Position numbers and translations under genes: made by a program | Assembly: GCA_948567375.1 (NCBI GenBank) | Contig: OX419758.1 | Span: 4,221,001-4,285,000, forward strand | From: Lunularia cruciata | Lineage: Eukaryota; Streptophyta; Marchantiopsida; Lunulariales; Lunulariaceae | Reading direction: 5' to 3' | Length of the DNA stretch: 64,000 bases | Shown here: positions 1 to 44,606 of the stretch, piece by piece | How positions within the stretch are numbered: position 1 is the stretch's first letter | How the letters are laid out: every line of letters begins with the position of its first letter | The notes under the pieces: generated by a model | Databases searched by the model: none | What the model was told of the DNA's origin: nothing | What the model saw: only the letters and a program-made list of their open reading frames with translations

Positions 1-51
1 GATCAAGTACTGATCTGATTTGAGTTAAGAACAAATTGATTATACATCACT

Positions 52-560
52 GTCAACATCCTACACTATAAAAGCACAACTCACACATACATCAACTCTA
101 AAGTACCACAATAAATCAGTTTGTTTACACAACTCAAACCACACTCAAACATATCAGTACTTGATCTGTCACTCTATAATCTCCCAACAATTGAGCATTG
201 ATCATAATCAAGCCACACCCTCTCTAGCTAAGAGAATCTAGGTGATGCTCGTCGGCCTCTATCCCCCATAGCCAAGAACTTGAAGGCTCAACATTAGAGA
301 AGTGAGCTCTCTGGAGCTGCACTTTGAAAGTATATCCCTTGGACTTGAGCTAGGTCTCAAACCATAACGGTCCCATTGATAGCATACCCAATGGTGAAAA
401 GTGACAGTGGGCCCCACCATGAAGTCAGTACCATAAATACAAAATTTGACCGTTAGAAAGTAATCTATGAGTAACTACTAAAATACCTCTAACTACTATC
501 ATTGCAACTCTAGTGTTTGAGCAATCTAGATGTGATGCTACAAATGGCATGACAAAGGAT
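52..560. repeat. Dispersed non-coding repeat, left copy
   Basis: Positions about 149-560 match 7695-8110 in the same orientation with scattered substitutions, and 52-110 match 8150-8220. The two blocks occur in opposite order in the two places, so the left copy reads as the end of one repeat unit followed by the start of another. On the minus strand the short block begins TGTGG, as an LTR would. No coding potential is visible. It may be LTR sequence of an unidentified element, but no primer-binding site or internal region could be tied to it. Confidence 0.5.
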
Positions 561-777
561 TGCACCCTAAGGTTTAATGATGTAGCCTTCTACCATACAA
601 TGTCTCCCCATCTTACACAAGGAAACATCATCACACTATTGTGACTAGCCCTCATTTTATATCAAAGGATGACATTTTTTGTCAAGATAAAGATTTGGAT
701 GAAGAACACCTCCATCTCAATAGACCTCTCCATGATGATATTATCATCCCTGAAGAAGAAGAAAGGAAGCCCACTAA

Positions 778-1367
778 TGTAATACTCCGGGGATAAGAGA
801 ACTCTCCAAGAGAGAAGACACAAGTTTCACATTCAATACTCCGTTGCCCCAAAGGAGCACCTTCTCTTTATAATATAGCAAAGAGGATCCCCTCGATGGA
901 AGCTCTACCTTTGGATCAGATACATGGATTGGTGACCTATCAATGAGCTCCATCCTTAGATTCATTGTTTGGATGGCTGACATGTCAATCCTTGTCCTAT
1001 CTAGTTGGTCAAATGGGTTTGACCAACGGGAATCTTTATGGAATCTTTTGTAAGGAGCTCAAAATCATGTGGACGAGGTACAATTGGAAAGCTATCAAAT
1101 GAGAAAAGTCATAGGGAAGAGAAGGAAAGCCTTTCTCTATCCTCACTAGGAGAAATCTTTCCATTTTCAAGGCCTAATTTATCCATTGAGGCCTCCAAAA
1201 TTGGCTCTAAAGTTTCTTGGCTATTTTTTATTTCTGCACTATTAGTAGAGGTACTCTTTTGGTGACATTTATATCTGATCTTCCTAGCCCATTGTGCACA
1301 ATAACCTTCTAGATATTACCAAACCAATTTTCATTTCTAGATGATATGTCTAACTACTAGTATTACA
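778..1367 (-). mobile_element. Solo LTR, element E family (minus strand)
   Basis: The reverse complement aligns along its whole length with the 738-bp LTRs of element E (47201-47938 and 53051-53788). It starts and ends with the same TGTAATAC / TATTACA termini and keeps the TATA-like tract and the segment before the LTR end. It is shorter because it has only one copy of a roughly 155-bp block that is tandemly duplicated in E. The flanks are ACTAA (773-777) and ACTAC (1368-1372), a five-base target-site duplication with one mismatch. No PBS or coding region adjoins it, so it is a solo LTR and an older insertion than E. Confidence 0.8.
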
Positions 1368-1659
1368 ACTACATGCAACAAAGATGTTCTAGTTACTACT
1401 ATTGATGACAATTCTCTATCTCAATAGCTCAAGCCATTTTTGGAGGAAGTTCTTACCATCATTGATGATCATATGGGGAAGCCCACAAAGTGGGTTGAAA
1501 AGGAACAAGAAGTCCCTCAAACAATACTTGAGGACAAGTTGCAATAATGCTTTTTGGAGAAACTTCCAAAGTAGTTGTCAAAACATTTCCTCTCCACTTG
1601 CAAGTTGTGTACTAGTTTTGAGATCTCAATATCTCACAAACAAAAGAAACACCTAAATA

Positions 1660-3020
1660 TGTCAAGATCAGCACCAACATGTTGGTCAAAGATCAATCTA
1701 CCCATAAAGACCTCTTTCAAGATTTTCAAGATGCTTTTGCCTATGATTACATAGAAGTCATGGATGTTGATCCCATAGATATGCCCACATCAAATCTTAC
1801 TCCATTGAGAGGCTCTTTAAGTCTAAACCCCACATACTCTTAGAAAGTGTATGATGAATTAAAAAAATTACTAAAATGTGGGCTCATCTGACTCATACAA
1901 GAGATAGAATAGGCCTCCCCAATCTTGGTGGTCCTTAAAAAGGATATGGGAAAGTTGCAAATCTATGTAGACTTTTGCAAGTTGAATTTGAAAACTATCA
2001 CAAATCCCTTTTCAATCATATTCATAAATATGCTACTAGACAAAGTAGCTGGTAGCCAATGATCCTTGTTTGTGGATGGATATTCTGACTTGGCTTTTGC
2101 TCTAAATGACCAATACAAGATATTGTTTGTCCTAAAATAGGGCACCTATGCTTATTGAGTGATGCTCCTTAGTGGTTCAATGCTACATGATGAACTCATT
2201 TGGCATAGTAAGAAAAGACAGAGAGTTATACCTTGATGATATGTGCATGCATAGTTCCCACACTAATCATATCAATTTTGCATGTTTATAGGCAAGTTAG
2301 GATTTCTTAAAATCCCCAAAAGTGTCTATTTACCATTTCTTGTGGACCTTTCCTTGGTCACCTAGTTTGTGAAAATGCCATAATGGTGGACCCCAAGAAG
2401 ATCCAGACCATTCTTGAGTTGCCCCTACTAGAGACTAAGTGTGAGCCTAGAAGTTTCTTAGGTTTTATGGGATATTATAGGTGATATGTTTACATGTATG
2501 CTAAGATTTCTTCTACATTGATTGACCTCCTACACACCACTATTAAATTCATGTAGACCAAAACATGCACCGATATATTCAAAACTTTGAAACAAAATGT
2601 AGCCATGGCTCCAATTCTAGCATCACCTAGTTGGAAGCTGGTTTCATGTTCATGTAAACACCTCTAACATGGCCATGAGTGTTGTCCTAGCCCAATATCA
2701 TGATGAACAATGGAAACATCCACTCTATTATGCTAGTTGGTAACTCAGAAGAACTGCTTGACAACAAAGTGAGAGTGCTTCAGGATGATCTCCACTATCC
2801 AAAAGCTTCACCACTTCCTTATGGCAAACAGTTGTGTGTTCCATGTAGATCATAGAGAACTCAAATATCTGATGAACAAAAAATGTCATGCAAGAAGACT
2901 GGCCCATTGGATGTTACTCCTACAAGAGTTTTCTTTTATGGTGGAATACCGTCCTAGCAAGTCTCATGATAACATAGATTGTTGTCTTGTATCCTTGGAT
3001 GTCTCATATATTGCTCCTTG
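1660..3020 (+). pseudogene. Decayed Ty3/gypsy reverse transcriptase-RNase H
   Basis: With several in-frame stops and frame changes, this stretch reads as the RT and RNase H part of a gypsy polyprotein. Visible pieces in order are a basic KKDMGKLQI segment, a VDFCKLN segment equivalent to the usual VDYRxLN, a degraded motif A (VDGYSD), a SFLGFMGYYR thumb/connection motif near 2450, and an RNase H tail near 2784-3020 (VDHRELKYL, then LLLQEFSF). Gag and protease upstream are not recognisable. The solo LTR at 778-1367 interrupts sequence just upstream. Integrase is not seen downstream, where the family-A'-type LTR end at 3267 begins. It is non-functional; lineage within Ty3/gypsy is not resolved. 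Confidence 0.75.
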
Positions 3021-4052
3021 AACATGGATCCCATAGACTTCAATTCTTTTATGCAAGGGAAAACATGACTCCTCAATCATCTTGGATGATATGAAATCAA
3101 GCAATATCTCTTTATGGATAACATGCAATTTGATTTATGCTGGGCCCTACAATTCTTGCACAACAAGTGGGGATCTTATATGCGAGCGGTCTTAGGAATT
3201 TTGGACAACTCAATGTATAGTGTCAAACTGCTCCACAATTATAGCACATGCTTACAAGTGTATTTTTGTGACAACCTAATGTTGATGTATTATTAGTACA
3301 TCATCCCCCTAGGATATGCATTGACATATGAAATGACTAGAAATGGAAATTAAGTGTCACAATGTCAGAAGTGGTTTATTCTTATGTGTTAAACCTCTTG
3401 GGCAAAACCCACTGTGGCATCCTTCAAAAGAGAAATTAACAACCATTCTCACAAAAGATCTAATCTAATAAGCCCTTGATTGTGGTAGTTCACTTCACTC
3501 CAAAAGACTCTCCTTGAAGAGCTTCTTTTACCCCAGCAGCTAGTCCTTCCTCGTAGGTTCATTTCACCGCAAAGGTTGGTTTTAGTCTAAAGGTTGGTTT
3601 TTAGGCCAAAGGTTCTTTCTTTGTGATGCCATCATTGATTGCATGCATCTCTTCCCAAAAATTGCAATCCCAATGAAATCCAAAATTGATTTTCCACTTG
3701 GCTTTTCTATCATATGGTACTCTCAATGCTTCATTGTTCCCAAAACCATTCCTCACATTGACTTGCTCATTTCGAATGTCAAGGGTAACTTACTTGAAAA
3801 TATGTGAATTTCTTAAGTGGATATTCAAGCACTCATTCCCACTGTATGTCAAGGGTAACTTCCTTGGTTTAGTGTAAATTTCAAAGCAAGTTCTCCAACA
3901 TACACTCCTATTGCAAGATTTCTCACTTCTACTTGAACAAGTACACAATAAAAGGTGTAAGGAAAAGCAATCCAATGCAAAGAACTCATAGAAATCTTTA
4001 GGCTAAATACTTTGATTATGAAGGAAGTGGACACAACTTCTATAGGTCATAA

Positions 4053-4137: not shown

Positions 4138-4559
4138 CAAATTTCCTAACTGTTTGATGAAGATGATAATTGACTAAGAGTGTTGCAAATCTTCTAATTC
4201 CACCTACTCCACTTTTTGCTATCCTACATGCTGATCTTATCCTAAACATAATTAAGAAGTGATGATGCAACCACTGCCAATCACAACTACTACTTGTTGT
4301 TTACTTTGTGCATAATTACAATTCTGAAATCTTTGGCTACAGAATTATCATGTGGTCTAAATTATGTCAAAGGTCTTCCAAAATGAAGACCCTTCCAAGT
4401 CAAAGATGATTACTAGGCCAAAAATACATTCGATACTTAATAGATTCTACTTATTTCCCTTTGGCTAGAATCTCTTCATTCTCAAATCTTTTACAAGTAA
4501 CTACCTTCACCCTTACAAACCTTAACTAATAGATCTACACAATCTTAGTACTCTATGAT

Positions 4560-5460
4560 CTCCTTCAGCAATGCCTTTGTGGATTCCTCAAAATTCTTTG
4601 AGGGGTGTTCAAATAGCTTATTGGCTACCTACTACAAGCACTAGTCCATGTATACCGTCATTGTGAGAGCATGCACTTGAGTTATGGAATGACAAGCCTT
4701 CAATTTCTCCAAGGATGCCTCCTCCATTAACTCCTTTGCAATTTCTTCAAGATGGTCATGTGCCATCTCCATACTTGCTAAAATCATAGTCTTCTCCACA
4801 TTGAACAAGGTCCGACTCTCATCCATCTCAACCAAGATCTCTTCTCAAATGGTTGCCTAATCATTTTTGCATTCCTCTTCCTTTTGCTTGATACTTTTTA
4901 TGAATTTCTTCACTTGTATATTGGCTGCTCATAGGTTCTCTTAATGAAAGTTTTTGATGCAACAAGGGCAACCTTCACCTTTTGTATTTCTCCCTTAAAT
5001 GCCTCAACTTCTTCCACTCGCACTTTACTATTTCCTTAAGCTGGGTTTGTTGATGTGCTTCTTTGTCCTTGGACTTCATCGCTTCTTGCCTCATCATTCT
5101 CTCTTCTTGGATCTTCTTCTCCAAAGCTACTCCTTCTTCAGAAATTTTAGCTACCTTCTATGAAAATTGTTATTTTGCTTACCCATTTCCAAATGTTGTG
5201 CATGAACCTCTAACAGTTCATCCCGCACCTTCATCTTCTCTTGTGTTACTTCTTGCACAACTTGCACAAATTGATGAAGATGTTGATGAGCATGATATAA
5301 TCCATAATGGCTCCATGGGATTTTGCATATGGGGAGGGGTAGCTCCATCAACTCTAGAGCCGGGCCGACCCTATACATCACTAATTGGGAATTCTTCTCT
5401 AAATGACATTACTCTAAATAGTACTTGGATTCACCTTGACTTGACTATCAAAGCAAATTT
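4560..5460 (-). pseudogene. Coiled-coil remnant, LTR-protein-like C-terminus
   Basis: The minus strand encodes fragments rich in Glu, Lys, Gln and Leu, with heptad-like spacing, split by stops and frameshifts: for example 4835-4641 and 5381-5151. Composition and position, about 1.3 kb inside the LTR terminus at 3267, resemble the C-terminal coiled-coil half of the family-A LTR protein (compare 12623-13570). I could not align it residue by residue, so homology is inferred from composition and location. It could also be an unrelated gag-like coiled coil. It is clearly not translatable as one protein. Confidence 0.4.
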
Positions 5461-5524
5461 TTAGGCCATTTTCAAAGATAATATGACCAAACATTGGTTG
5501 TTTTATTCCTAGTATCAAAAATCA

Positions 5525-6060
5525 TGCAATGAGAATCTTGGTAGAGGCACTCATGAAGTTGTTCAAGTCTAAATGAACAACTTACCTTGACAATAATTAG
5601 GCAATCTTTTTTGAGTTTTTACCAAGGAAAACCTATCACTTGGGCAGTGATGTTTTGGGCAAGGGTAAGAGAGCTTGTAGGAACTATGAACAAGGAAGGA
5701 GTGACTTTGATGTCACCCTTCTTTTTGCATTTCTACTTGGGATGGATTTTTTAATCGCAAAAGAGAAGAAAAGTATCTTGGCCACTTATTCCCTATAGGA
5801 CAATTTGCAAGCCAAAAGGAAGAGTACTAATGGTGCAGAAGTATGTTAAAGTGGGCAAAAAATGTGCCCACATAGGGAAATACATGGAGGTGAAAGAATC
5901 ATATAATACTATGGACTTCAAGAAGTAGAGTCAATAGCCAATCACCATAGAGCCAATGATTAAGAAATGATCCACTCCGAGGCTAAAGGCAAAAGCTACT
6001 AAGGGGATGAGGAGGATCCTCATGGACAACAAGGAAGAAGAAGAAGAATTTTAGGATGAA
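5525..6060 (+). pseudogene. Distant relative of the LTR-encoded protein, N-terminal block
   Basis: Reading the plus strand through stops, this matches the conserved N-terminal block of the family-A LTR protein. An ALMKLF..TTY segment corresponds to ALMAIL..TTYVMKHQ. A YQGKPITWA segment corresponds to AREPINWA. An ARVRELV segment corresponds to GRTRQMV. PFFLHFYLGW corresponds to PFAAHFYLGL. Spacing between blocks is preserved, and an acidic/basic stretch follows (about 5980-6060), as in the family-A protein. Several stops and at least one frameshift break it. Its orientation is opposite to the coiled-coil remnant at 4560-5460, so the two are separate fragments. It shows that the protein family extends beyond the family-A LTRs. 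Confidence 0.6.
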
Positions 6061-10187: not shown

Positions 10188-10925
10188 GCTTCTCTACTTG
10201 ATATGGTCCCATCCACCAAAGATGACACTTCCCAAGGAGGAACTTGTGTCAATTGTCATACGAAAACACATACTCTCCTTTTGCAATCTGCACAAGTCAA
10301 AGATTTTGATCATGAACTTCCCTCCTTCTCCCTTGAACCTCCCTTGTGCAATTATGAGATCATCTCTCTTCTCTTCCAGAAACATCAACTGCTACGATAT
10401 GCCCACAAGGCTATTGGCAACTTGGTATCCTAGTTGTATGCATAATTCACCTTTACCTTGTTTTGGATTTTGCACAACAACCCATTGGCTTTTGGATTGT
10501 AGGGAGTAGTTTTCCTATGTGTAATCTTAAAGTGCTCAATGAGAGACTCCATTAGTTTGTTCAAGATATTAGCTCTCCTATCACCCACTAATTAGAAAGT
10601 GCAACCATATCAAGAGATGTCATTCTATAAGAAGGATTTTCCTATTGTATTCATATCATCCTCTTTGATAGCTTTCACTTCTACTATTTTTGTGGCAAGC
10701 CAAATATATCTCTTTTGTGTGGTTTAATGGTAGGTTGTGTTGGACCTACAAAATCAATTCTCCATTTCTCAAATGGAGCTAGGGGTAGAATAGATCAAAG
10801 GGACCATTGGGATGAAGACACAGGTCATCTTGTTTGTTGATGCACATCACATTGTTTGATGAATCATGGACATTCTTGTACATGATTGGCCATCAATATC
10901 TTGTTACTAAATTTTTTTTACCAAA
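10188..10925 (-). pseudogene. Decayed integrase C-terminal half of element A'
   Basis: Across stops and frame changes the minus strand gives CDVHQQT, PLAPFEKW.IDFVGP.QP, a LEEKRDD segment and a final WWMGPYQV. These match, in order, the element-A integrase (CDACQQI, PLAPFEKWGIDFVGPIQP, WLEEKRDD, RWMGPYHV). The first is the zinc-binding end, the second the start of the catalytic core, and the last the GPY/F module. The catalytic D,D,E residues cannot be read reliably. It ends just before the polypurine tract at 10054. From 10926 to 11385 I see nothing recognisable, so most of the A' interior is deleted. Confidence 0.7.
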
Positions 10926-11826: not shown

Positions 11827-12622
11827 TTGGTTGTGACAACCCTGCAAATATCACTTTTGCGGTAATCGGGTAAGTAAAGTTTGTTCCCGCAGAGATACGA
11901 GTCAGAATTGGTCAAATACGAAGTCAAACAATAACATGTAGTTTTTCTTGGTTGCATCTTTAATCTCTCAGGTAGAAACCACACCCAGAAGAGAGTAACA
12001 AGCACTGACTTGCAATCTTGTCACAAATTCACACTCCTTAATCACAACTCCATCAAATCTTTCCAAACAATCTTGATTATGATGATTCAGGCTCTCCCAA
12101 AAATGGCACTTCATTGCAAAACAACTTTGCCTCAGAATTGTGTTCCACCCCTCCACTGAAGGCACAACTTCCTCGATCTAAATTGCTTCACATCAACCTC
12201 GCACTGCACTCACAAATGCAGAATACTACCAACACTACAATTCCTCTCAAATCTGTCAAGGCATTGCTTCAATTGCACTTCACTCAGGATCAAACACACA
12301 GAATGAAGATCAAGGCTATGGAATCCAACATCCAACAAACACACTGACTTGCACTTTGAATTTCTCCACACACTCACAAACATAGACACAAAGTTAATAC
12401 TCGGAATCAAGCTCAAGCAACGAGCACTGCTTCACAACACTTCGCTTTATCTATTCTCAGAAATTATGAGCACTGAACAACATAAGACTGCAAAGGCCAC
12501 TCTTAAATAGTGAACAAATTGACAGTTCTAACAAGTATACCGTTTTACAACAACTTTTCTAACCTGTAGATCCAAAATGACAATGCACCTCTTCATATCT
12601 GCCTCTTCAAATCTCAAATCTG

Positions 12623-15196
12623 TTACAAATCCAATCCGATGTCTACTTCGTCATTGGCTTTCAATACCAAACCCGAAGTAACTTTACTTCCTACTACTCT
12701 ATCTTCGGGTTTTGTATTTTCTTCTTCTTCTACCAGATCCAACAATTCTCTTTCCTGATCTGAAATTCCACTAGTGGGTAATCTATCTAACTCCTTATCT
12801 CCCAACCCACTCTTCTCTAATGTCTCCAATGGTAACTCCGAAGACATTTGTACTCCTATGTTATCTACTTTGGGTTTTGCTCTAACATCCTTCCGAAGCT
12901 TTTCTATCTCTATTTTCACTAATTCTAATCTTATCGCAATATTGTCTTCTACTTCTAAGATCTTCCTGTCCACACGAGTCCAAAGACTTATCAACAACGT
13001 GTTCAAATCTGTATCTTTTGCCTGTCTTTGCCTCGTCTCCTGCACCAACAATTTCAACTCGTGCAACCTCGTTTCTTCAATCCGAACGCTAGCCTCTGTA
13101 CTCAACATTGCGTTCATCCTTAGGACAATCTCCTTCAATGGCTCCAATCTCATCTTCCTCTCTCGCTCTCGATCTGCAAGCCAATCCTCCCTGTACATCG
13201 CCAACTCCGCTTTGAACTCGGCTTTCACCGTCTCCTTCTCCTTCTCCTTCTGTACAACCTTCTCCTCCTGATTACAAAGTAATTCTCGTAATCGGTCTTC
13301 TTCTTGGTATCGTGCCGCCAACTCTCGTTGCCAGAGTTGCTTCTTCTCCTCAACACTCTCCATCACCCTATGGAGCTCTTGATCCTTTGCTGCTACTCTT
13401 GCCATAGCATGAATTACTTCTACTCTTGAATCAACAAATTGATGCTTCAAGATTTCATACTCCGCTACTTGTCTCTCCCTTGCTGTGTCACTCTTCTTCA
13501 CAAGATCCTCTTGATAACTTACTTCCCTCTTCAAGTCTTCAATTACCTGACCTCTCACCATTGCCTCCACTCATAGCACTTCCCTTTCCTCCTCACCTCG
13601 AGTTATACTCTTCTTCAACTCCGAGTTTTCTTCTTCTAATCTCGCCAACACCTGCAATACAGTCTTTACCTCCGGACATGTTGACTGCATTTCCTTCTTC
13701 TTGTACTCCATCTTTATCAGTAGAGGACATACCACATCCCACAAGTACTCCACTCCATCGCTCGGGGTTACCTCTTCTTGTGTGGCTACTTCTCTTCGTA
13801 CTTCCTGTTCATCCGATACTCGCCTTCTTCTCTGCAGTCTTCGTATTGGAATCGACGCCTGACTTCCCGAGCTTTCACTTACCTCTTCCTTTGCCTTACT
13901 CAGCCCTGCTTTGCACTTTGCTTTACATCTTGAGCAAACTCCTTGCTGTACAGCGATCTTCTTCTCTTTGGGCACAGTTACTTTGTCTTCCAATTGTGTG
14001 TTGTCTTTGTCATCCATCTCGGCTTGCACTTCTTCTTTGTATTCTTCAGCCACTGGCGCCGATGTCATTTCTCCACCTTCATCACTATCGCTACTTGTAT
14101 CTCCACTCTGCAGCATTAGCTTAGGCTCCTCCTAGTGTTCCGAGTCTTCAGTTTTGAGCTTGGCATCTCCTTCTGAGTCTTTGTCCTCCGAGTCAATTAC
14201 CACCATACCTCGCCTCGGGTTGCCTCTTTGCGTCTTCCAAGGTTTCTTTATGTCCTCGGCGTCACCTTGCCGACCCCTCTTCTTTGTGGTTGGGGTACTC
14301 ACTGCGACCTCCACATTCTTCCCCATCTTCGCATAGTAGTCGTCAGTGCTCCTGATCTGCAGGATGTATTGCTACTCCTCAACGTCGACCTCCTTTCGCA
14401 CATCAGGATGGAAGTGCAACACAATCCGAGTCCGCTCTGCCAAGTTCAGCAAGTTGAGCCCAAGATAGAAGTGTGCTGCAAATGGCACAATGTAGTGTGG
14501 AGGCGACTTATCCCGCAAATTCCACACCATCTGCCTCGTTCTCCTGTGAAAACACCGCGCCCAATTGATTGGTTCTCCTGCGAAAAGCTTGTGAAAGAAC
14601 ACCGCTTGGTGTTTCATCACATAAGTGGTTTGCTTCGGATTTAGGATAGCCATTAGTGCACTCATGATCCCTCTCTTCACAGGGTCTTTGTAGCTCTCAA
14701 CCTTATACCCGTTCTTTGTCCTCTTTGACGAGAAGGCATCTCTCACCTCTTGGGTCTCTTGAGCTATCTCTCCCTTCCCCAAGAACGTGGCTCCCTGCTC
14801 CAAGCCTGCTTCCTTCCCGAGTACAAGTCTCCAATATGACTCTGTCCAGCGAGCCAGATTTCCTCTCTTCCCTTCTTCCTTGGGTCCATCGATACACTTG
14901 CTCTCGATGATTTCTATCATGAATCCTGGAAAGCTTACATTCCATGCCAGAAATGTGATCCAAAGTCGGCTCAAGACTTTGATCCTTGCTATTACATCTA
15001 GCCTCCAAATCGCATGATTTCTCACTGTGAATTCAGAGTTCTTCTTTCCTCCTCCCATCTCTCTTGCCTTCTTACTCTCTCTCGATTTCACTCTTGCGAC
15101 TTCTCCCTTGCGCACTAACACGATTCCAACTCTATTTCCCTTCCCACAATCACCTGCAAGATGACTTCTCAACGGCGAAGGAAAATTACTTGACAT
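12623..15196 (-). pseudogene. LTR-encoded coiled-coil protein, near-intact copy
   Basis: One minus-strand frame of about 858 codons from ATG 15196 to a stop at 12623, broken only by three in-frame stops (14374-14372, 14134-14132, 13573-13571) with no frameshift. Residues about 1-290 form a conserved block (LARWTES.WRLVLG, TTYVMKHQAVFFHK, EPINWARCFH, PFAAHFYLGLNL) shared by all family-A LTR copies. A basic then strongly acidic middle follows (Ser/Asp/Glu runs), with a CSRCKAKCKAG segment. From about residue 520 on, a long Glu/Lys/Arg-rich coiled coil is expected. There is no signal peptide, membrane segment, protease, RT or nuclease motif. Function is unknown; a structural or nucleic-acid-binding role would be speculation. 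The start is chosen because copy 3 opens with the same MSSNFPSPLRS and a TATA-like box lies 21-27 bases upstream. Confidence 0.75.
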
Positions 15197-15216
15197 TTTG
15201 TCGTTGCAAGTTTGAT

Positions 15217-15223
15217 CTTTATA
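15217..15223 (-). promoter_or_regulatory. TATA-like box just upstream of the LTR ORF
   Basis: The minus strand reads TATAAAG about 27 bases before the ATG at 15196. Equivalent boxes precede the ORF at 16238-16245, 28730-28737 and 61936-61943, so placement is conserved across the family. If this is the LTR promoter, the genomic RNA would start at or very near the ORF. Confidence 0.55.
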
Positions 15224-15609
15224 GAGTTGTGCTTCTTTGTCTTTCGTCACTTCAAGTTTCTACCGAGAAATCACACCTCCGGCATGCACCTGTCACTATC
15301 AATCAACCTTCACGTGTATGGGCCGCCGGTTTTTGAACGGTCCCTTCTTGAATTTCTCGCCCCGACAAAAGGTTGTTAGACTGTCTTCGCCTTGGGTTGA
15401 GCTCCCCTTGATACAAAGACAATTTACTTCGGGTTGTATGTTGACAGGGCATTTCCGAGTACTTCACTTTATGACCCAAAGTCACTTTACTTTAGGTCCA
15501 TCCCGAAGACTCTTTTCTTTGCCTTCTTTGGCCATACAGGCACAATGCGACTTCTCTATACACTTCTTCTCCTTTATTTTGGAAAAAAACAAAAAATGTA
15601 GGCACCACA

Positions 15610-15843: not shown

Positions 15844-16237
15844 TGTGGTACCCAAATTTTTTTATTTTTTTTTATAGTTTCTATGCAATTTTGAAAAAGA
15901 AGTGTACAAACAAAGTCAAATTGAACTCAAATGGCATTGGAAGGAGAAGAATTGTGTCTTCGGGTTGAAACCTAAAGTGACATGACCAAGTTAGAAGCAA
16001 AGTACTTGGATTAGAACCGGCCAAGAGAATTGAAGTAAGGGAACTTTGTCTTGGGGTGATCAACCCGATGCAAAGATGGCGTAACAACTTCCCTTTGGAG
16101 GGGCAAATCAAGAAAGTACACGCAAAGAAATGGCAAAGAAGGCACAAACCACTTACCTGGATAGGCCAAGAGGAAGTCATGCAGAAAGGGTGTGTTTCAC
16201 TGACAAGCAATGGAGGAATGGCTGATGAATGAGGAAC

Positions 16238-16245
16238 TATAAAAT
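16238..16245 (+). promoter_or_regulatory. TATA box of the element A 5' LTR
   Basis: TATAAAAT, 33 bases before the ATG of the LTR ORF at 16271. The same box occurs in the 3' LTR at 28730-28737, also 33 bases before its ATG at 28763. Confidence 0.6.
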
Positions 16246-16270
16246 CAAGACTTTGTTGAGGGATTTTGAA

Positions 16271-17037
16271 ATGTCTTGCAAGTATCCTAAGCCACTCAGT
16301 AGTCAACCTAAAGGACTGTCTGTAGAAAAGCTGGTCGAGTGTTTGATGTTTAACAAGTCTGAAGAAGTTAGGATATCGAGACCAAGAGCCGGTAGTCACA
16401 CAATGCCAAAGAAGGGTGAGAAGAAGAGTCCGTTGCTTGCAATGCAAAATCCAGTGATTCAAAGATTAAATATGATAGCTCAAATTGAAGTCCTAAATAG
16501 ATTTTGGATCACTTTTGTAGCATGGAACTGGAATTTGAGTTTTCCAAGGTTCATGGCAGAAGTAGCATCAAGTGATTGTGAGGAGGTACCTGAGAATGAA
16601 GGGAAGAGAGGCAATCTGGCTTGATGGACAAAGTCAAATTAGAGGTTGGTGCTGGGTAGAGAAGCCGGTGAAAAAACTAGGGCAACATTTCTTGGGAAAG
16701 GAGAGTCTATGGAGGAGATAGATAAGATTCAAAAAAATTTTATGGCGCCACACACAAAGAACAAATACAAGGTGGATACCTATCGAGACCCAGTCAAGCA
16801 AAGCATCATTGGGGCAATGATGGCTTTCTTCAAGCCCAATCGCATGACTTATGTAATGAAGCATCAAGTGGTCTTCTTCCACTAGATGTTTGTAGGCATG
16901 CCAATTAATCGGGCAAAGTGCTTCCATCAAAGAATGCGGTAGATGGTGTGGTGGAGAAAGCGAGATACGCCTCACTATTTGGTGCCATTTGCTGCCCATT
17001 TTTACTTTGGATTGAATTTGATGAAGGAGTCTGAGCT
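16271..17037 (+). pseudogene. LTR-encoded protein, truncated copy in the A 5' LTR
   Basis: N-terminal third of the LTR protein, with in-frame stops (for example TGA at 16622-16624). Readable blocks are FVAWNWNLSFPRFMAEV, EGKRGNLA, LVLGREAG, NKYKVDTYRDPVKQS, MTYVMKHQVVFFH and PFAAHFYFGLNL. The frame ends where a reversed B-family LTR fragment begins, so the acidic middle and coiled coil are absent. Sequence resembles the 28763-30505 copy more than copies 1 or 2, as expected for two LTRs of one element. Confidence 0.8.
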
Positions 17038-17294
17038 ATGAGCCTGCCCGTCTCTCACTCAAGATGAACTTGTGATGGCTATTATGGTAGCACATCATCA
17101 TCCCTTGTTTATAAACTTGTGAAATAATTATGCATTAAAGTTACTAATTACCATAGTAACTCAAGTTACTAGACTAAAAGTCAAAAAGTAAAAAGGAATA
17201 TCCATTCACATGGGCATATTCCCCTAAGCATGTGGTTTTATCTTGACCCAACCACTAAGTCAAGGATTCCTTCACATGGGCTATCCTTGGACTA
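17038..17294 (-). mobile_element. B-family LTR fragment, reversed
   Basis: The minus strand matches the 3' part of the element-B LTR, from the region after the TTTAGTCCAAGGATAGCCCA motif to the LTR end, with an internal gap where about 120 bases are missing. Its left end corresponds to the LTR 3' terminus. No target-site duplication can be seen, because the other end is lost in the deletion that also removed the middle of the host LTR. Confidence 0.75.
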
Positions 17295-17779
17295 TCATTT
17301 TGTGTGTTTGATCTTGAGTGAAGTGCAATTGGAGCAATGCCTTGACAGATTTGAGATGAATTGTAGTGTTGGTAGTATTTTGCATTTATGAGTTCAGTGT
17401 TGAGTTGATGTGAAGCAATTTCAATCAAGGAAGTTGTGCCTTTAGTGGAGGGGTGGAACACAATTCTAAGCCAAAGTGGTCATATAGCAAAGTAGCCATT
17501 TTTGGGATGGACTGAATCATCACAATTAAGATCATTTTGGACATATTGAAGTATTGTGATTAATGAGTGACAAGTTGTGGTGATGAGATTGTGATCAGTG
17601 CTTATTACTCTCTTCTGGGTGTGGTTTCTACCCAAGAGGTGAAAGAAGAATTCAAGACAAACTATGCTTGTTACTGTTTGACTTTGTGTTTGACCAATTC
17701 TAACTTGTATCTCTGTGGGAACAAACTTTACTTATCTGATTACCACAAAAATGATATTTGCCAGGTTGTCACATGATTT

Positions 17780-17798
17780 TCGGCACTACTGTCGGGGA
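17780..17798 (+). other. Putative primer-binding site of element A
   Basis: TCGGCACTACTGTCGGGGA lies six bases after the LTR end at 17773. It partly matches the PBS class ending in TGCCGGGGA used by many plant gypsy elements (tRNA-Asp-like), with several mismatches as expected for an old copy. The match is tentative; the position is what makes it convincing. Confidence 0.5.
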
Positions 17799-17861
17799 TA
17801 CAAATCTCAGAAGTGGAAGAATACAAAGCAAAATTTCACACTAGGTTTTGAACCAATATGA

Positions 17862-23249: not shown

Positions 23250-26200
23250 TGTGACAACCCGGCAAATATTACTTTTGCGGTAATTGGGTCAGTAAAGTTT
23301 GTTCCTGCAGAGATACTATCCAGAATTGGTCAAATACAAAGTCAAAAGTCACAATGGCAGTTCTTCTTGATGGCTTCTTTAATCTCTCAGGTAGAAACTA
23401 CACCCAGAAGAGAGTAACAAGCTCACAATCTTGATAACTTGTCACAAACACACACACATAATCACAACATAGCAAAGTCTGTCCAAACAACTCTTGATTG
23501 TGATGATTCAGATTCTCCCAAAGACGGCACTTCATTGCGAAGACCGATTTCACCTCAGAATTGTGTTCCACCCCTCCACTGAAGGCACAACTTCCTTGAT
23601 CAAAATTTCTTCACATCAACTTTGTGTTGCACTCACAAATGCAGAATACTAACAACACTACAATTCCTCTCAGATCTGTCAAGGCATTGCTCCGATGCAC
23701 TTCACTCAAGATCAAACACACAGAATGAAGATCAAGGCTGCAGATTCCAACATCCACAAACACACTGACTTGCTCTTTGGAATTCTCCACACACTCACAA
23801 GCACAAACACAAAATTGACAATCGGAATTAAGCTTAAGCAACAAGTACTGAGAACAACACTTCGCTTTATCTATCTTCAGAATTATGAATACTGAATAAC
23901 ATCATACTGCAAATGCTCCACTTAAATACTGAAGCAAATGGCAGACTCGCCTACCTAGGCACCGCTTCCTAACATCCTTTCCTACCTACAGATCCCAAGG
24001 GACAATCTATCTCTTCATATCTGCCCTTTCCTATCTCAAAATTGACTTCTATCCCGATCCGATGACTACCTCATCATCGGCTTCCAAACCCGATGATCTT
24101 CCTACTATTTCACCTTCTTTGGGTATGATGGATTCTACTAATTTCTTTACTAATTCTACGAATTCTTCACTACAATCTACAATTGAGCTCATGGGTAATC
24201 GATTTACATTCTTATCTCCCGACCCACTCTTCTCTAATGTGTCAATTCTCAAGTCCGATGACACTTGTATTCCTACTTCTGCAACATCGGATTTCTTCTC
24301 CACTGTCACACTATTCGGAATTTTCTCTAACTTCAAATTTACCAAATCCAGTCTAAGACTAACATTATTCTCTACCTCCAACATTTTCCTATCTACACGT
24401 TCTCTCAATTGAATCAGCAATGTGTTCATATCCACATCCTTGGCTTTTTGCTTCCGAGTTTCCTGCACAAGTAATTTCAACTCATGTAGGCGGGCTTCCT
24501 CCAATCTCCCTTCAGCTCCGTGCTTAAGATCGCTCTTAACCTGCTTGCAACTTCTCCTACTGATTCCGACTCATATCCTCAAGAGCGTTCTACTTTCAAC
24601 TCCTCGCGATACATCTTCAACTCGTCTTCGTATTCTGCAGCGAGCATCTTCTTCTCCTCTGCATATTGCATACTCTGCTGTTCTATGCTCTTGACAAGTT
24701 CTCGCAATTGCTCTTCTTCTTCTTGTTTGGTCGCCAACTCTCTCTACTATGCTTGATCTTTTGCTATGGCACTCTTCTTCAAGCTGTCCAACTCCTGCTC
24801 CATCACAATGTTCATTGCCTTAAAATGGACATTCTCGATGTGCACATCACTCACTTCCTCCTTCATTTTGCTCAACCACATTGCCTGCTCCTTCAATTCT
24901 CTGGCTTGCCTCTGCAATTCCCTCTCCTTCTCGGCGCAACTCCCTTGTAGCATGCTCAACGTTTTCTTCCTTGAGCTTTCCTCCCTCCGAAGTTCTTCCA
25001 CTTCCGTGCTTCTTCGGACTTGTTGTTCTTGCAACTCCTTCACTTCACTCACCAGATACTTCACCATCTACAATTTGTTCATCCCTTTTCCAACGATCTT
25101 GGGGAATTACACTTTGATTCTCCGTCAACAGCTCCAGCAATGGTGTGACTACCTTTGTCAAATATGATATCCCAACAAAGTTTTCTTCTTCCTCCTTGCC
25201 ATCTTTTTCTGGAGTCTTCTCCTCCGTCATTGGCTCCTTCATCTGAAGTCGTGATCTTTGTATCTTCATTGTATCAGCATTGTCTTTGTTTTGGCCTCTT
25301 GAACTCGGCCCCGTGGGATTCTCTACCTCCTCCTCTGGTTTTGACGTGTTCTCCACCATTGCCTGACCAGCCTCACTTACTACCACCAATTGCTGGACTT
25401 CGGGTTCTCCCTCACTGTCGCTCCCAGACTCCTCACTTTTCAAGGTGAGCTCTTCTTCTTCCGAGTCCTCTTCTTGTGACTCAGTTTCCTCCTCAGACTC
25501 CGATCCTGATGATGCCCTTCTTACAACTTTAGCGGTCTTCAACATCAGCCGCTGAGTCTTTCTTTGCATGGGAGATGTCTTGGCTTCTTCGGGTTTACTT
25601 TGCTTCTTCGTCTTTGGACTGGTAACATCTTTGATTTTCCATTGTCTCGTCCTTGCAAAGTACTCGTCATTTGCTCACAGATGAAGCATATATTGGCGCT
25701 CCTCATCGTCTACTTCTCGTCTCAAATCGGGGTGCATGTGCAACACCATACAATGATGCTTGTCTTTGAACAGCAAGTTCAGCCCGAAGTAGAAATGAGC
25801 CGTGAACGGTGCAAAATAATGCGGTGGCGAGCCTGTTCTCCAATTCACCACCATCCGCCTTGTTTGGTGATGGAAGCACTTCGCCCAATTCACTGGAACT
25901 CTTCCAAACATCTGATGGAAGAAGACCGCTTGCTGCATGGTCACGTAGGTTGTTTGTTCTTGCTTGAACATGGCCATCATCGCCCCCACGATACTTCTTT
26001 GGATCGGGTCCCGATATGATTCCACCTTGTAACCATTCGTGGTTCTTGGAGCAAAAAATGAGTTACGGATCTCCGCCGTCTCTTCTGCAACATCACACTT
26101 CCGATAGAAGGTGATTCCTATTGGCTCTCTTGCTTCTCTCCCCAGGACTAAATTCCAATCCGACTCAATCCATCGAGCCGGATTGCCTCTCTTCCCTTCT

Positions 26201-26957
26201 ACCTTGGGACCCTCCTCACAATTACTGGCAGCAATCTCTAGCATTACCCCCGGGAAACTGAAATTCCAGTTCCATGCTAAAAATGTAATACGAAGTCTAA
26301 CCAAGACTTTGATTCTAGCTACTACATCTACTCTTCGGATTGCAAAACCTCTCACTGCTAGCGCGTTGGCCACCTTCTTTGCCATGATTTGTTCTCTCAT
26401 TCTACGCTGTTGGAAAATCAGACCCTCTCCTAGATGAGACACTCTAACTCCCTCAGGGTTCCGGAAAATCTCACTCTAGACGGGCTTCCGGACACACATT
26501 ACTGCAGGACGACTACTCAAAGGAATTGGAAATTTACTCAAAGGTTTCAACTTCCCCTGCGCAGTCGCAATTTTATATTGCCCCGAATTGTAGTCATTCT
26601 TCAGTCAATTTTAGTCTGTGAATTTCTCTCTTCTGCGTGCACTCCTGGTCACTGTCAAGACATGCTTATTCTGCCCCCGCCATTTCTTGAAATGTACTTT
26701 CTTGCCACGTATAGAGGTTGTTAAACGGTCTTCATCTTTCCGGCGTCTTCCAACCCAAAGACGATGATCTTTGGCCTTTTTCTGGCGTACTCCTCTTTCG
26801 AGTACCTCCGTCATCGGATCCGATGTCAGCTTCTTCGGCTTCCCTCCAAAGTCACTTTTGCCCCTTCTTTGTCTGCAATTTGACTTTTCCGTGCTTACTT
26901 CCGTGCTTACTCTTAATCACTACTAACCATAGAAAAACAAAAAATGTGGGTACCACA
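23250..26957 (-). mobile_element. Family-A solo LTR carrying a long ORF (copy 2)
   Basis: A complete 3708-bp unit in minus orientation, starting TGTGGTACCCACATTTTTT (26957) and ending GGTTGTCACA (23250). It is flanked by perfect GGTTT duplications at 23245-23249 and 26958-26962. It sits between RNase H and integrase of element A, which is in the opposite orientation. Its ORF sequence is clearly different from copy 1 and copy 3, so it represents a separate subfamily. A TATAAAAT lies at 26570-26577 (minus). Confidence 0.9.
24049..26442 (-). pseudogene. LTR-encoded coiled-coil protein, copy 2
   Basis: The minus strand from about 26442 (MSHLGEG...) to 24049 encodes the same protein as 12623-15196 in a more divergent version. 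The N-terminal block is open for 255 codons (FLAWNWNFSFPGVM, GNPARWIESDWNLVLG, TTYVTMQQAVFFHQ, VPVNWAKCFH, PFTAHFYFGLNL). One stop follows at 25675, then an open acidic middle (25569-25045) dominated by Glu/Asp/Ser, a frameshift, and coiled-coil segments 25067-24747 and 24504-24049 (ARLHELKLLVQET, VDRKMLEVENNV). The family ATG seen in copies 1 and 3 is not obvious, so the true start is uncertain. Substitutions between copies leave the block structure intact, which hints at past selection on the protein. Confidence 0.75.
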
Positions 26958-26962: not shown

Positions 26963-28320
26963 CTTGATGAAGAGTTATATCATTTAATGGCAATGCAAAG
27001 TATGAGGTATGCTATAGAATATCATTATCTACATACTTGTCATTGTCTTGAGGGGCTGGACCCAAAGTAGAGGGCAGTCTTCCTCAGGAGGATGGGACCG
27101 TACCAACTAAAACACAACTTTTTATTTAAGATGTGGAAAGACAAAGTACTTCGGATATGCTTGGAGGCATAAAAAGTTGGAGGAGTAATTGAGTCCTTAC
27201 ACTCTAAAGCATCATGAGGACACTATGCCCTGAAGAATAATGTAAAGAAAATTCTTTCATTGGGGTATTGGTGGCCTATGATGTATAAAGATACTCACGC
27301 CTACATACGGAGTTGTGATGCCTGCCAACAAATAGGAAAGTTGATGGCTACTTCTCAATGGCCTTTCAGAACAATTTTTCCATTGGCTCCATTTGAGAAA
27401 TGGGGTATTGATTTTGTGGGTCCAATTCAACCAATTACCCATGTCACGAGGAAAAGATACATCTTGGTGTGCCTTGATTATGCTACCAAGATGGTAGAAG
27501 CAAAGGCAACTTGGAGCGATGATGCAAAAACAATTGCAAAATTTTTCTTCTAAAACATCATTTCATAGAGGACATTCACGTTATAGATGTCCTCTAGAAT
27601 TGGGTCGTGACAAGGGAACTCATTTCTTGAACTCAATGGTGGAAGCGTTAACCAAGTACTTCCAGATTAAACATCAGAAGATGACTCCTTATTATCCAAA
27701 AGTGAATGGACTAATGGAGAAGGACAATGGATTGTTATGTAAAATTTTGAACAAGGTGATAGTCAATTATGGCTACGATTGGGACACAAAGTTACCTACA
27801 GCTTTGTGGGCATATAGAATGACAAAGAAGATTACAACCAAACAAAATCCTTATTTCTTGACATATGGATTGCATCCCATACTACCAATTGAATTTAAAG
27901 TACTGATTTATCAGATTTTGTGCGAGGAACGATTGTATGAGGAAGAAAGTCAGGATCTTCAGATCCATCAACTGATGTGGTTAGAAGAGAAAAGGGATGA
28001 TGCAATGCAAACCACAAAGGAGGTACAAGAATAGAGGAAAGTCAAGCACAATAAGAGACTCAAGCCTATGGCTGTTCAGGAGGGTGGTTTGATGTTGTTA
28101 TATGACAATCACCAAATATTTTTTCCAAGCAAACTGCATTTAAGGTGGATGGGGCCATATCATGTTATGCACATTTATGCTCTTGCTCTATTCAATTTGA
28201 AGACCTAGACTGCATCCTTTTGCCACTCGAGTGAACGAGTGGAGAGTTAGAAAATATTGGACCACGGACCCGGCTTTGTATAAAGACCCTACTATCGGTG
28301 TTTGCAAGAACGCTCACATT
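26963..28320 (+). pseudogene. Element A integrase, decayed
   Basis: The pol frame resumes after copy 2. The zinc-binding region reads WGYWWPMMYKDTHAYIR then CDACQQ (about 27260-27330). The catalytic core follows with PFEKWGIDFVGP, YILVCLDYATK, ELGRDKGTHF and a YYPKVNGLMEKDNG segment; the last holds the usual E position. A frameshift near 27550 separates the first and second Asp. The C-terminal module reads RWMGPYHV at about 28150. The frame ends ...NAHI-stop at 28325, directly before the polypurine tract. There is no chromodomain. Integrase would insert the cDNA; this copy is disabled. Confidence 0.88.
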
Positions 28321-28321
28321 T

Positions 28322-28334
28322 GAGGGAGGGTATA
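28322..28334 (+). other. Polypurine tract of element A
   Basis: GAGGGAGGGTATA immediately before the TGTGGTACC start of the 3' LTR. It is the plus-strand priming site and fixes 28335 as the start of the LTR. Confidence 0.85.
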
Positions 28335-28762
28335 TGTGGTACCCACATTTTTTTTTTAAAAAGTTTTTGTGTTATTTTGAAGAAGAAATATACAGACAAA
28401 GTTGGATTGAACTCAAATAGCATTGGAAGGAGAAGAATTGTGTCTTTGGGTTAAAACCCAAAGTAACATGACTCCAAGTCGGAAGCGCAGTACTCGGATC
28501 AAAACTGGCCAAGAGAAACCCAAAGTAAGGGGACTTCGTCTTGGGGTGATCAATCCAATGCAAAGATGATATAACAACTTCCCCTTTAGAGGGGCAAATC
28601 AAGAAAGTATAGGCAAAGAAATGGTAGACAAGGCACAAATCACTAACCTAGATGATGCCAAGAGGAAGTCATGCAGAAAGGGTGCATTTCAGTGACGAGC
28701 AACAGAGGAATGGCTGATCAACAAGGAACTATAAAATCAGGACTTCATCAAGGGGATTCTGG

Positions 28763-30505
28763 AATGTCCCGCAAGTATCCTAAGCCACTCAATAGTTGAC
28801 CCAAAGGAGTGCATGTAGAGAAGCCGATTGAGTGTTTGATGTTTAACAAGTCTGAAGGAGTTAGGATCTCAAGACCAAGAGATGGTATAATTATTTTTCA
28901 AGTACCATGCACTAGAGATTGCACAATGTCAAAGAAGGGTGAGAAGAAGAGTCAGTTGCTTGCAGTGTGAAATCCATTGATTCAAAGATTAGATATGATA
29001 GCTTGAATTGAAGTCCTAAGTAGACTTTGAATCACTTTTCTAGCATGGAATTGGAATTTGAGTTTTCCAGGGTTCATGGCAGAAGTAGCATCAAGTGATT
29101 GTGAGGAGGGACTTGAGAATGAAGGGAAGAGAGGCAATCCGGCTCGATGGATAGAGTTTGATTGGAGGTTGGTGTTAGGTAGAGAAGCTAGTGAGGAAAT
29201 TGGGGCAACATTTCTCGGGAAAGGAGAGTTTGTGGAGGAGACGGATGAGATTCAAAATACTTTTACTACACCATGCACAAAGAATAAATACAAGGTGGAT
29301 ACCTATTGAGACCTAGTCAAGCAAAGCATTGTTGGGGTGATGATGGCACTCTTCAAGCTCAATCGCATGACTTATGTAATGAAGCATTAGGCGGTCTTCT
29401 TCCACCAAATGTTTGCAAGCATGCTAGTAAATAGGGCAAAGTGCTTCCATGAAAGACCATGGGAAATCGTGTGGTGTTGGGGAAATGTGAGATGCGCCTC
29501 ACTATTTGGTGCCATTCATTGCCCATTTCTAATTCAGATTGAATTTGATAAGGAGTCTGAGTGAAGAAAGACGGTGTCACATTTTCATCCAGACTGATGA
29601 AAGACTACAAATGACAAGGAATAGCAGTATATTCAACAGATCCAAAGTAGTGATGAGCACTATAAGTGCACAAGGTAGTATTTAAGAGTAGCATTGACCA
29701 TTCCAAAGATGAGGAAGCAAAGTCATCCAGAGGAGAGTTTGTCGCCAGTTAAGTCAAAGAAGGTGAGGAAGGTGAACCTGAGGCAAGAAGTCGTAATGCT
29801 TGATGAGTCATTGGGAGCAGAAGAGTTGGAAGGCAAAGTTGAATACAAAATAGAAGACTTGGAAGAAGAAGAAGAACCGGAGTTTATGATGCAAAGTGAA
29901 GAGTAGAGCAATGGAAGCAAAAAGGAGATGGAAGTTCAGCAACACGGAGGAGATGATACTTATAAAGAAGAACACAAGTTCCATGCGATGATTGATCAAA
30001 TGGAAGGAGGAGGAAACCTGTGTCATGAATTACCCACCATGGAGATAGAAGAAACTCTGGAGGCTAAGCCAAAGGTGGAAGTTCAGTAGGGTAGAAGATG
30101 AAGAAGAAGTGTTGCTACTGCACGGGCAGAAGTGAGCAATGTAAGTCCGGTAGTAGAAGGTCAGATGAAGAACCTCTGAGAGTTAGAAGATTAAGACTTT
30201 GGAGTAAAGCTCCAGTAGAAGAAGTAAGAAGCAAAGAGCCAAAGCAAGCTGAGAGCTTGTGAGTCTTTGATGGGGTAGAATACTTGGCGTGAGTAGTTTG
30301 TCCCTTGCTGTTGCAATTGCAAAAGAAGAGGGAAGACTTGAAGAGGGATTACTCAAGAGTGAAAGATGAATTGGCAGTAGTGCAATACATGAATGATGAA
30401 AATTTGGAGTTGAGAAGAAAGTTGAGTTTGGGAGAGCATGAGTTAGTAGAATTTTGGACTGATCTAGAGTTGAGGAGGAAGGAAATGGAGAGTCTAATGA
30501 AGGAC
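28763..30505 (+). pseudogene. LTR-encoded protein, N-terminal and middle part (A 3' LTR)
   Basis: ATG 28763 lies 33 bases after TATAAAAT (28730-28737). Blocks readable through stops are NWNLSFPGFMAEV, GNPARWIEFDWRLVLG, NKYKVDTY, MTYVMKH, then a Lys-rich and strongly acidic middle open at 29694-29906 (LEEEEEPEF), and a coiled-coil stretch at 30305-30505. Element B then interrupts it after ...KEMESLMKD, and the frame resumes at 38196. The ORF has the same strand as gag-pol, showing it is a sense-strand LTR gene. Confidence 0.75.
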
Positions 30506-31197
30506 TGTAACACCCGTTTGTGCATGTGTGTGGTATTGTGATATTTAGCTTGGTATTACAAGTACTTAAGAAATATTGTTTATATAGAGATAAAGGATGG
30601 TTCTATATTAGTCATGGTTAGCTAAAGCTAGTCATAGCTAAGATAGAGGGGACCTTACTTTAGAGGAAGTAGAAAAGATGAGCACCACTATTTTGGACTT
30701 TAGTGTGTTGACTTGGTATTATTCCTAGGTGTTTGGCTTTGAGGAAAGAGTTGAGAACTCTTGGGCCCGCAAGCCTTTTTGTTTTGGATTCTTCTTTAGT
30801 CCAAGGATAGCCCATGTGAAGGAATCCTTGACTTAGTGGTTGGGTCAAGATAAGACCACATGCTTAGGGGAATATGCCCATGTGAATGGATATTCCTTTC
30901 TACTTTTTGACTTTACTTGACTTTTAGTCTAGTAACTTGAGTTATTACGGTAATTAGTAACTTTGGTACGTAACTATTTCACAAGTATATAAACAAGGGG
31001 TGAGGAGGTACTCATCATCCTTTCATTTGCAACTATCTCTCTCTCATTGAGTTCTCTAGTGAGCAATGTCTTGAGTCTTGGAGTGTTGGCCTTGGAGGAG
31101 TATGATGGAGTTGGGGTTCCTTGCCTTCTTAGTCCATGGTGCGCTACCATAATAGCCATCAGAGGTTCATCCTGAGTGAGAGACAGGCCGGCTCACA
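30506..31197 (+). mobile_element. Element B 5' LTR
   Basis: Starts TGTAACACCC and ends GGCTCACA. TATATAAA at 30986-30993 is the likely promoter, about 200 bases before the LTR end. A PBS-like TTGGTTCTGTTGCCGGGA follows at 31201-31218 and resembles the tRNA-Asp-type class ending GTTGCCGGGGA. Confidence 0.92.
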
Positions 31198-31238
31198 TTT
31201 TTGGTTCTGTTGCCGGGACCTCTCTAAAAGGCAAGATA

Positions 31239-32544: not shown

Positions 32545-32777
32545 TGATGGAGATAATCTTTCAACTTATGGATAAACTATCCATGAGAGTTAGATTAATA
32601 TGCACTCTAGGATTTGTTGTTACTATAGAAATCTTGGAGCGACCTGAATCTTTTGTGTTCCCTAGAGTGGATTATTCTCAGATGGTGTTAGTCATGTATA
32701 TACTCTATTAGTAATAGAGTGAGAGAAAAGAAAAGAAAAAAAGATTTGAGAGAAAAGAAAGATAGTGAGGGGTTAAG

Positions 32778-34694: not shown

Positions 34695-34732
34695 ACTTCC
34701 ACGAGGAGGATGAATCTGAATCTGATTTAGAT

Positions 34733-37451: not shown

Positions 37452-37499
37452 AGAGACCTTCACTTTGAGGACAGAGTGAAAACTTAGTCCGGGGGTAAA

Positions 37500-38191: not shown

Positions 38192-38195
38192 GGAC

Positions 38196-44602: not shown

Positions 44603-44606
44603 TATG

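Follow-up and report, generated by a model that had tools for sequence, protein, structure and literature searches.

A long open reading frame that is very probably a selected accessory gene inside the long terminal repeats of a gypsy family of Lunularia cruciata

The long terminal repeats (LTRs) of plant retrotransposons are commonly treated as regulatory, non-coding ends. In mouse mammary tumour virus (MMTV), the U3 part of the LTR is described as holding the Sag open reading frame (ORF) and the promoter P2 used for it (PMC9412291). Extra ORFs (aORFs) of plant elements, such as Grande gene23, RIRE2 and env-like ones, are reported from the internal region and are often antisense (PMC7264820), the TRP28 aORFs of Retand are likewise placed in the internal region (PMC11963269), and rice Retrosat2, with LTRs of more than 3.2 kb, is described as carrying an ORF0 upstream of gag-pol (PMC3485330). 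In Caenorhabditis elegans, the Cer1 accessory protein CERV is presented as having predicted coiled coils and a role in nuclear export of genomic RNA (PMC10309623). Here, we analysed 64,000 nucleotides of the Lunularia cruciata genome (contig OX419758.1, positions 4,221,001 to 4,285,000; hereafter the window), in which an LTR of a gypsy family contains an ORF of 857 amino acids in the sense direction. We consider it very probable that this ORF is a real, selected, LTR-resident accessory gene, and we recognised no LTR-located ORF of plants among the titles and abstract openings listed by searches of one open-access library.

The ORF resembles MMTV sag (and naf) in being a protein gene that lies wholly inside the LTR, in sense orientation and, as we place it, in U3, while it differs in belonging to a plant Ty3/gypsy element, in its length and possible coiled coil, and in that its U3 promoter is proposed from conserved motifs only. 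Pfam includes a Sag model, and a profile search with the ORF protein gave no Pfam match that would relate it to MMTV Sag. With the plant aORFs it shares the character of an extra protein of unknown function conserved across a plant gypsy family, whereas those are described as internal and often antisense and the present ORF is sense, in the LTR and without a match to PF04195. Retrosat2 is similar in its long LTRs and an extra ORF without assigned function, but its ORF0 is described as lying upstream of gag-pol. The likeness to CERV, an LTR-retrotransposon accessory protein with predicted coiled coils, is drawn from its published description, and its export role illustrates what a protein of this sort is able to do.

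The window unit at 11832-15609 (minus strand) measured 3778 bp, runs from TGTGGTGCC to GGTTGTCACA and is a solo-type LTR by homology to the LTRs of full elements, in agreement with the preliminary description of a unit of about 3.7 kb with TG...CA ends. The 5-bp target-site duplications claimed there were perfect around other solo LTRs, while the flanks of the window unit, GCCAA and ACCAA, are equal at 4/5 bases. The ORF at 15196-12623 (minus) has 858 codons including the final TAA, and an exact recount agreed with the earlier count of three in-frame stops (14372-14374, 14132-14134 and 13571-13573) and no frameshift; some other copies have it intact. At most 315 codons in a row are open in the window copy, which barely exceeds the maximum of 275 in 500 single-base shuffles read in six frames. 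The window copy taken alone is therefore modest evidence for coding, and the weight rests on the intact copies and the selection test.

We searched the genome assembly of 566 Mb in 74 contigs, in which counts of scored matches are lower bounds. Eight contigs of 60-85 Mb total about 558 Mb, which fits eight chromosomes; eight are also reported for Riccia sorocarpa, with a smaller assembly of 377 Mb (PMC11735767). The first 292 residues gave at least 134 scored matches out of 23,383 first-look candidates, with the window copy and others 85-90% identical, and a second subfamily, searched with the copy at 25675-26442 of the window, gave at least 149 scored matches out of 22,491 candidates. Altogether, three subfamilies carry the ORF. 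Twenty LTR regions were fetched for long frames or for a pair spacing of about 10 kb, and thus form a non-random sample. Three of these copies (L045, L046 and L047) were open across all 878 codons of the frame, and two more (L043 and L044) had frames of 861 and 862 codons by our own reckoning, ATG included. L045 (TGGTT) and L046 (GTAGT) are both solo LTRs whose target duplications are perfect, and L052 is also solo, with the duplication AATAC. In the second subfamily, the 3.70-kb solo LTR L073 is flanked on either side by AAGCA, and 865 of its codons are open.

Full elements of the family were also found. The pair L039/L040 forms the 97% identical LTRs of one element with the outer duplication CTGCA, in which the primer binding site (PBS) TGATTTTTGGCGCCGCTGCCGGGGA follows the terminal CACA of the 5' LTR and the polypurine tract (PPT) TTGAGGGAGGGGGTA stands directly before the 3' LTR. 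Two other pairs, L042/L041 (98.8% identical) and L050/L051 (92-94%), bracket the same PBS and gag-pol frames, and successive LTRs around one internal region are 92-99% identical. All six LTRs of the three full elements carry the ORF, with 744-877 of the 878 codons covered and 0-4 stops. Two further candidate pairs, L048/L049 and L052/L053, were ruled out as elements, since no PBS or long frame lies between them. Among the internal pieces, L059 showed the Pfam domains RVT_1, RT_RNaseH and Integrase_H2C2 in that order, and gag gave a weak match to Ty3_capsid (E=1.3e-4, under the curated cut-off). Thus, the identity of the unit as a gypsy LTR, proposed in the preliminary description, was borne out by PBS and PPT junctions, paired LTRs and gag-pol domains.

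Exact junctions were then counted genome-wide, giving 868 for PPT-LTR (one in the reversed control), 304 for LTR-PBS (control 0) and 3247 exact LTR starts (control 0). On one contig (C1), 18 of the 39 listed PBS junctions have a PPT junction on the same strand 5.65-6.45 kb further on, 10 of them at 6.15-6.17 kb. By our own count, an exact PPT precedes 9 of the first 100 LTR starts listed, which suggests that most LTRs are solo, truncated, 5' copies or altered in their PPT. That so many units stand alone would also fit a separate non-LTR transposon that merely has TG...CA ends. This idea is refuted by the PBS and PPT junctions and the 18 paired elements, and the 92-99% identity of successive LTRs and the matching duplications of one pair also speak against it, so that we regard it as hardly tenable. 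Taken together, the TG...CA ends, the 5-bp duplications, the PBS after one LTR and the PPT before the other show that the ORF lies inside true LTRs.

Two arrangements among these elements point to recombination. At about 81.05-81.06 Mb of C1 (L041, L042 and L060), a PPT precedes both of two successive LTRs in a tandem LTR-internal-LTR-internal array, which suggests unequal recombination. Moreover, two elements (L039-L042, L059 and L060) differ at a synonymous distance (dS) of 0.05-0.09 in gag-pol, yet their LTRs are about 10-12% apart over much of the ORF, suggesting LTR exchange by recombination between lineages.

We further examined how often the ORF is missing, by taking every fifth of the 96 PPT-LTR places on C1 (n=20) and reading a 221-base window at the expected site of the N-terminal block. 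The block was at its expected place in 15 of the 20 junctions. The remaining five comprised two with later parts of the ORF (codons 471-543 and 802-873), one with LTR sequence beyond the ORF, one with pol and one without a match; the three with later ORF parts or beyond-ORF sequence are shortened LTRs. Six of the sampled junctions belong to paired elements, of which five have the N-terminal block and one a C-terminal part. Deletion derivatives therefore occur in the family, another example being the 5' LTR of element A, a family member in the window. In this small sample, there was no full-size LTR that lacked the ORF; full-length members with such LTRs are what the preliminary description had named as a refutation of its claim.

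Selection on the ORF was assessed in 46 rows (L009-L058 without the five duplicates L009, L020, L023, L030 and L031, plus the window copy), which were aligned to a single natural copy. A variant was called shared if three or more rows had it and a singleton if one row did. At sites with at least 25 rows, singletons comprised 346 nonsynonymous and 160 synonymous changes (N/S 346/160) with 32 nonsense changes, and were spread over the codon positions as 207, 203 and 220; they behave neutrally. At the same sites, variants in six or more rows gave N/S 155/329 with 3 nonsense changes, and variants in three or more rows fell on codon positions 1, 2 and 3 as 247, 189 and 538. Over codons 22-878 (sites with at least 15 rows), shared variants had N/S 305/482 versus 369/171 for singletons, an odds ratio of 0.29 (p=1.8e-26). 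The other two sense frames, +1 and +2, showed no drop (1.27 and 1.23), the antisense frames gave 1.10, 1.58 (p=6e-4, a rise instead of a drop) and 0.38, the 3' flank in its three frames 0.78, 1.23 and 0.79 (p=0.59, 0.60 and 0.59), and those of the 5' flank 0.62, 0.75 and 0.44 (p=0.22, 0.42 and 0.02). Constraint peaked at codons 201-315 (shared N/S 30/84) and was weak at 316-420. Because rows had been picked by similarity in the N-terminal block, codons 316-878 outside it were summed separately by segments, and gave 221/314 for shared variants versus 280/117 for singletons.

Pairwise Nei-Gojobori estimates were obtained for 14 ORF comparisons. Ten of them, at dS 0.296-0.605, had ratios of nonsynonymous to synonymous distance (dN/dS) of 0.15-0.26, and the four at dS 0.058-0.117 had ratios of 0.30-0.42. 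For gag-pol of this family, pieces were compared eight times and gave 0.22-0.45. Thus, dN/dS of the ORF is as low as that of gag-pol, and between lineages it lies well below 1 and not near 1 between all copies. Two intact proteins of different subfamilies were 42% identical over 832 aligned positions (dN 0.52, dS saturated), and the amino acid identity between the subfamilies was 0.44, whereas 100 simulations of neutral, uniform substitution to an equal nucleotide distance averaged 0.26 and never exceeded 0.295. Judged from these substitution patterns, the ORF was shown to have been under purifying selection in the transposing lineages. The codon signal could instead be left from an earlier location, the ORF now being a passenger of the LTRs, as the stops in 42 of 46 copies and the neutral-looking singletons would allow. 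However, the shared variants arose during spread as LTR and are constrained, dN/dS is low at a dS of about 0.3-0.6 within one subfamily, and the two intact lineages, 42% identical, both have the ORF in LTRs; we therefore consider a passenger quite improbable.

The LTR carries two TATA-like boxes, one on each side of the ORF. Box 1 (15217-15223, minus; LTR position 387 of the window copy) reads TATAAAG here and TATAAAA in most other copies, lies about 28 bases before the first ATG, and is present in all three subfamilies just before the region in which two of them have their first ATG. Box 2 (12502-12510, minus; LTR position 3100) reads CTATTTAAG and lies about 110 bases past the ORF stop, with a TATTTAA core in three subfamilies. 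In these subfamilies, the post-ORF box takes the form TATTTAAG, or TATTTAAA in element A, whose 5' LTR has lost this region by deletion, and is followed by AATAGATAAAG or GATAGATAAAG; the AATAGATAAAG at 12445-12455 (minus) is a possible poly(A) signal of the window copy. The mean pairwise difference is 0.05-0.08 at LTR positions 3001-3600 versus 0.09-0.22 over 1-3000, with fewer rows in the 3' part, and shared variants per site amount to 0.07-0.13 at 3001-3600, 0.20-0.51 in the ORF and 0.12 across bases 1-150. The open gag frame of L060 starts with an ATG about 88 bases past the LTR, as would be expected if the genomic RNA started downstream of the ORF. From these motifs we infer a U3 of about 3.1 kb that encloses the ORF, a short R and a U5 of about 0.6 kb, with the putative R-U5 part of the window copy at 11832-12480 (minus, approximate limits), and we lean, without great confidence, towards a U3 with two promoters.

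Alternatively, genomic RNA might start at box 1, so that the ORF would lie in R-U5 as the first cistron with gag downstream. Box 1 (CTATAAAAAT) is by eye the stronger TATA match and occurs in three subfamilies, but gag would then begin about 3.4 kb past the start, behind an ORF of 857 codons, and right after the ORF, where the least variable part of the LTR begins, come another TATA-like box and a motif resembling a poly(A) signal. We regard this arrangement as unlikely and keep to the ORF in U3. As for the start codon, the conserved N-terminal block (14372-15058, minus) extends from the Met at codon 47, which has near counterparts in the other two subfamilies. Because codons 1-67 are weakly constrained and the first ATG is missing in the second subfamily, this later Met may be the real start.

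The encoded protein broadly agrees with the preliminary description of a conserved N-terminal block, an acidic middle and a coiled-coil tail. The block shows moderate hydrophobicity and is followed by a strongly charged stretch at residues 301-360 and a net acidic one (-7) at 361-420. In L045, a periodicity of 3.5 residues starts at residue 451, and four overlapping windows that reach to residue 700 gave z of 1.9-2.6; in L073, the windows up to residue 650 had z of 2.0, 5.8 and 1.5, and the three that follow were close to 0. The periodic region contains 4 or fewer prolines per 100 residues. This heptad-like hydrophobic pattern is suggestive of a coiled coil, which on transfer of residues ~451-700 of the intact copy would lie at about 13097-13846 (minus) in the window copy.

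Homology searches found no relative of the protein. Consistent with the earlier statement that no catalytic domain could be recognised, Pfam gave sub-threshold matches only. The N-terminal block alone yielded 898 candidates in the protein database and none at E 1e-3, and an 8-row alignment including three intact copies yielded none at E 10 among the 7998 candidates that shared most words with it. As a control, a search with pol from this family recovered 4170 of 8000 scored proteins; among the best named ones were proteins of Riccia sorocarpa (identity 70%, query coverage 98%), Calypogeia fissa and Marchantia polymorpha (identity 77%, coverage 58%), which shows that the database does include liverwort proteins. 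Counterparts of the ORF are thus missing, diverged or unannotated in the database, which does not imply their absence from those genomes. A sequence search of the PDB gave no match at E 1, and PF04195 (Transposase_28) gave none at E up to 10, with the HMMER filters applied. By eye, the motif TTYV...FFH..F.G.PINWA resembled the putative plant transposon domain PF20167; this resemblance was not supported, as Pfam gave no match. A genome search with PF20167 also found nothing here, and was equally blank in its 14 control genomes. No similarity to gag or pol pieces of the same family was seen (best E 3.8). The preliminary description had proposed profile searches and structure prediction for the conserved block: the profiles found no match, and the structure prediction was unusable.

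We also considered an envelope-like or movement-like product that had moved into the LTR. Its sense orientation and, in the 3' LTR, its position after pol would match the env-position ORFs as they are described (PMC7264820). However, hydropathy, the measure used, indicated no clear membrane span in two intact copies (top 19-residue values of 1.31 and 1.47), and no Pfam match was obtained; such a product appears very unlikely. A related origin that we considered is that an env-position ORF was shifted into U3 by a move of the PPT.

The best reading of these results, by analogy, is an accessory protein that would be encoded in U3 and read in the gag-pol direction, organised like MMTV sag. Several observations pull the other way. 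Most copies are broken, 42 of the 46 rows having at least one stop among the covered codons, and rows were chosen by protein similarity of the N-terminal block to the window copy or for long frames. The antisense frame with an odds ratio of 0.38 has synonymous positions that coincide with those of the sense frame, and we count its drop here; the 5'-flank frame at 0.44 (p=0.02) shows a mild drop, so this flank is not clean; and codons 1-67 are under little or weak constraint. The U3/R boundary is placed from motifs alone, and, in two subfamilies, box 1 is so close to the first ATG (about 28-34 bases) that a transcript begun there would have hardly any leader. Finally, the periodicity that suggests a coiled coil is of modest strength and, in the second subfamily, dwindles beyond residue ~650; the AlphaFold model of the N-terminal block, made with window sequences, is too poor to use (mean pLDDT 42.8, pTM 0.23).

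In the U3 arrangement, any LTR would yield a short mRNA for the ORF protein, started by a promoter at box 1 and terminated at a poly(A) site within R, and a second promoter at box 2, after the ORF, would produce the genomic RNA. The protein would most likely be a multimeric accessory factor for the RNA, particle or chromatin of the element and not an enzyme; our confidence in any particular molecular role is low. Because of its place in U3, the gene would be copied into both LTRs at each transposition and could survive in solo LTRs. Every intact LTR, including solo ones, might even be a free-standing gene with promoter, ORF and poly(A) site. Its product would then be a helper that acts in trans for the family, for instance by countering silencing or by assisting the export or packing of genomic RNA, an idea that we hold as possible and rather doubtful. 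The formation of a solo LTR is normally the death of an element; if the idea is true, helper genes would remain after it, and scattered LTR genes would partly run the family.

A selected LTR-resident gene would mean that annotations of LTRs and solo LTRs can hide protein genes. The accessory gene would be present twice in each element, and solo LTRs could have effects in trans. Such a gene would also give a plant counterpart to the U3 gene of MMTV, and makes it testable whether solo LTRs help their autonomous kin.

In the window itself, element A, which had been noted earlier as having the same unit as its LTRs beside a PBS and a PPT, is real, and both of its LTRs were located. Its 5' LTR (15844-17773, plus) is internally deleted and is followed by a degenerate PBS (17774-17800, plus) of the family form given above. 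An integrase-like ORF fragment (27519-28034, plus) was named by eye, and Pfam returned nothing for it at E 0.01; a stretch of the fragment aligns with 10397-10820, a segment that itself matches the integrase part of another pol. The PPT TTTGAGGGAGGGTATA (28319-28334, plus) stands before TGTGG, the start of the 3' LTR, whose first part (28335-30505, plus) resumes at 38192-39709 (plus; with the C-terminal part of the ORF) and then at 63890-64000. The N-terminal block is present and broken in both LTRs, with 50% and 44% identity. The 3' LTR is interrupted at 30506-38191 by another LTR element, a younger gypsy element with 0.69-kb LTRs that are 99% identical and a 772-aa pol frame.

Further copies lie nearby. 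A solo LTR of the second subfamily (23250-26957, minus) has the perfect duplication AAACC and a broken ORF. Another LTR (39710-63889, plus; perfect duplication GAGTG) is inserted in the 3' LTR of element A and is in turn interrupted by a large element (about 41013-60044). Inside it, an inverted LTR piece at 60045-62326 has its end meeting position 62327 within the direct piece, which suggests a local inversion or an inverted nested insertion. Segments 41018-44572 and 57122-60049 belong to another element as its LTRs, each about 3 to 3.5 kb long, and are full of an 81-bp tandem repeat; their long antisense frames of 412 and 244 aa are probably open from the period alone.

A distant relic of the N-terminal block lies at 5496-5742 (plus) in two short pieces with 38-39% identity, and coiled-coil-like frames on the minus strand adjoin it at 4300-5400. 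Genome-wide, this relic type gave 150 scored matches out of 4613 candidates, with open frames of at most 196 aa; as far as such similarity goes, the relic and these matches show a wider, older group. On a second contig (C2), four match pairs at about 10.05-10.60 Mb stand at near-regular offsets, which suggests a recent large tandem or segmental duplication.

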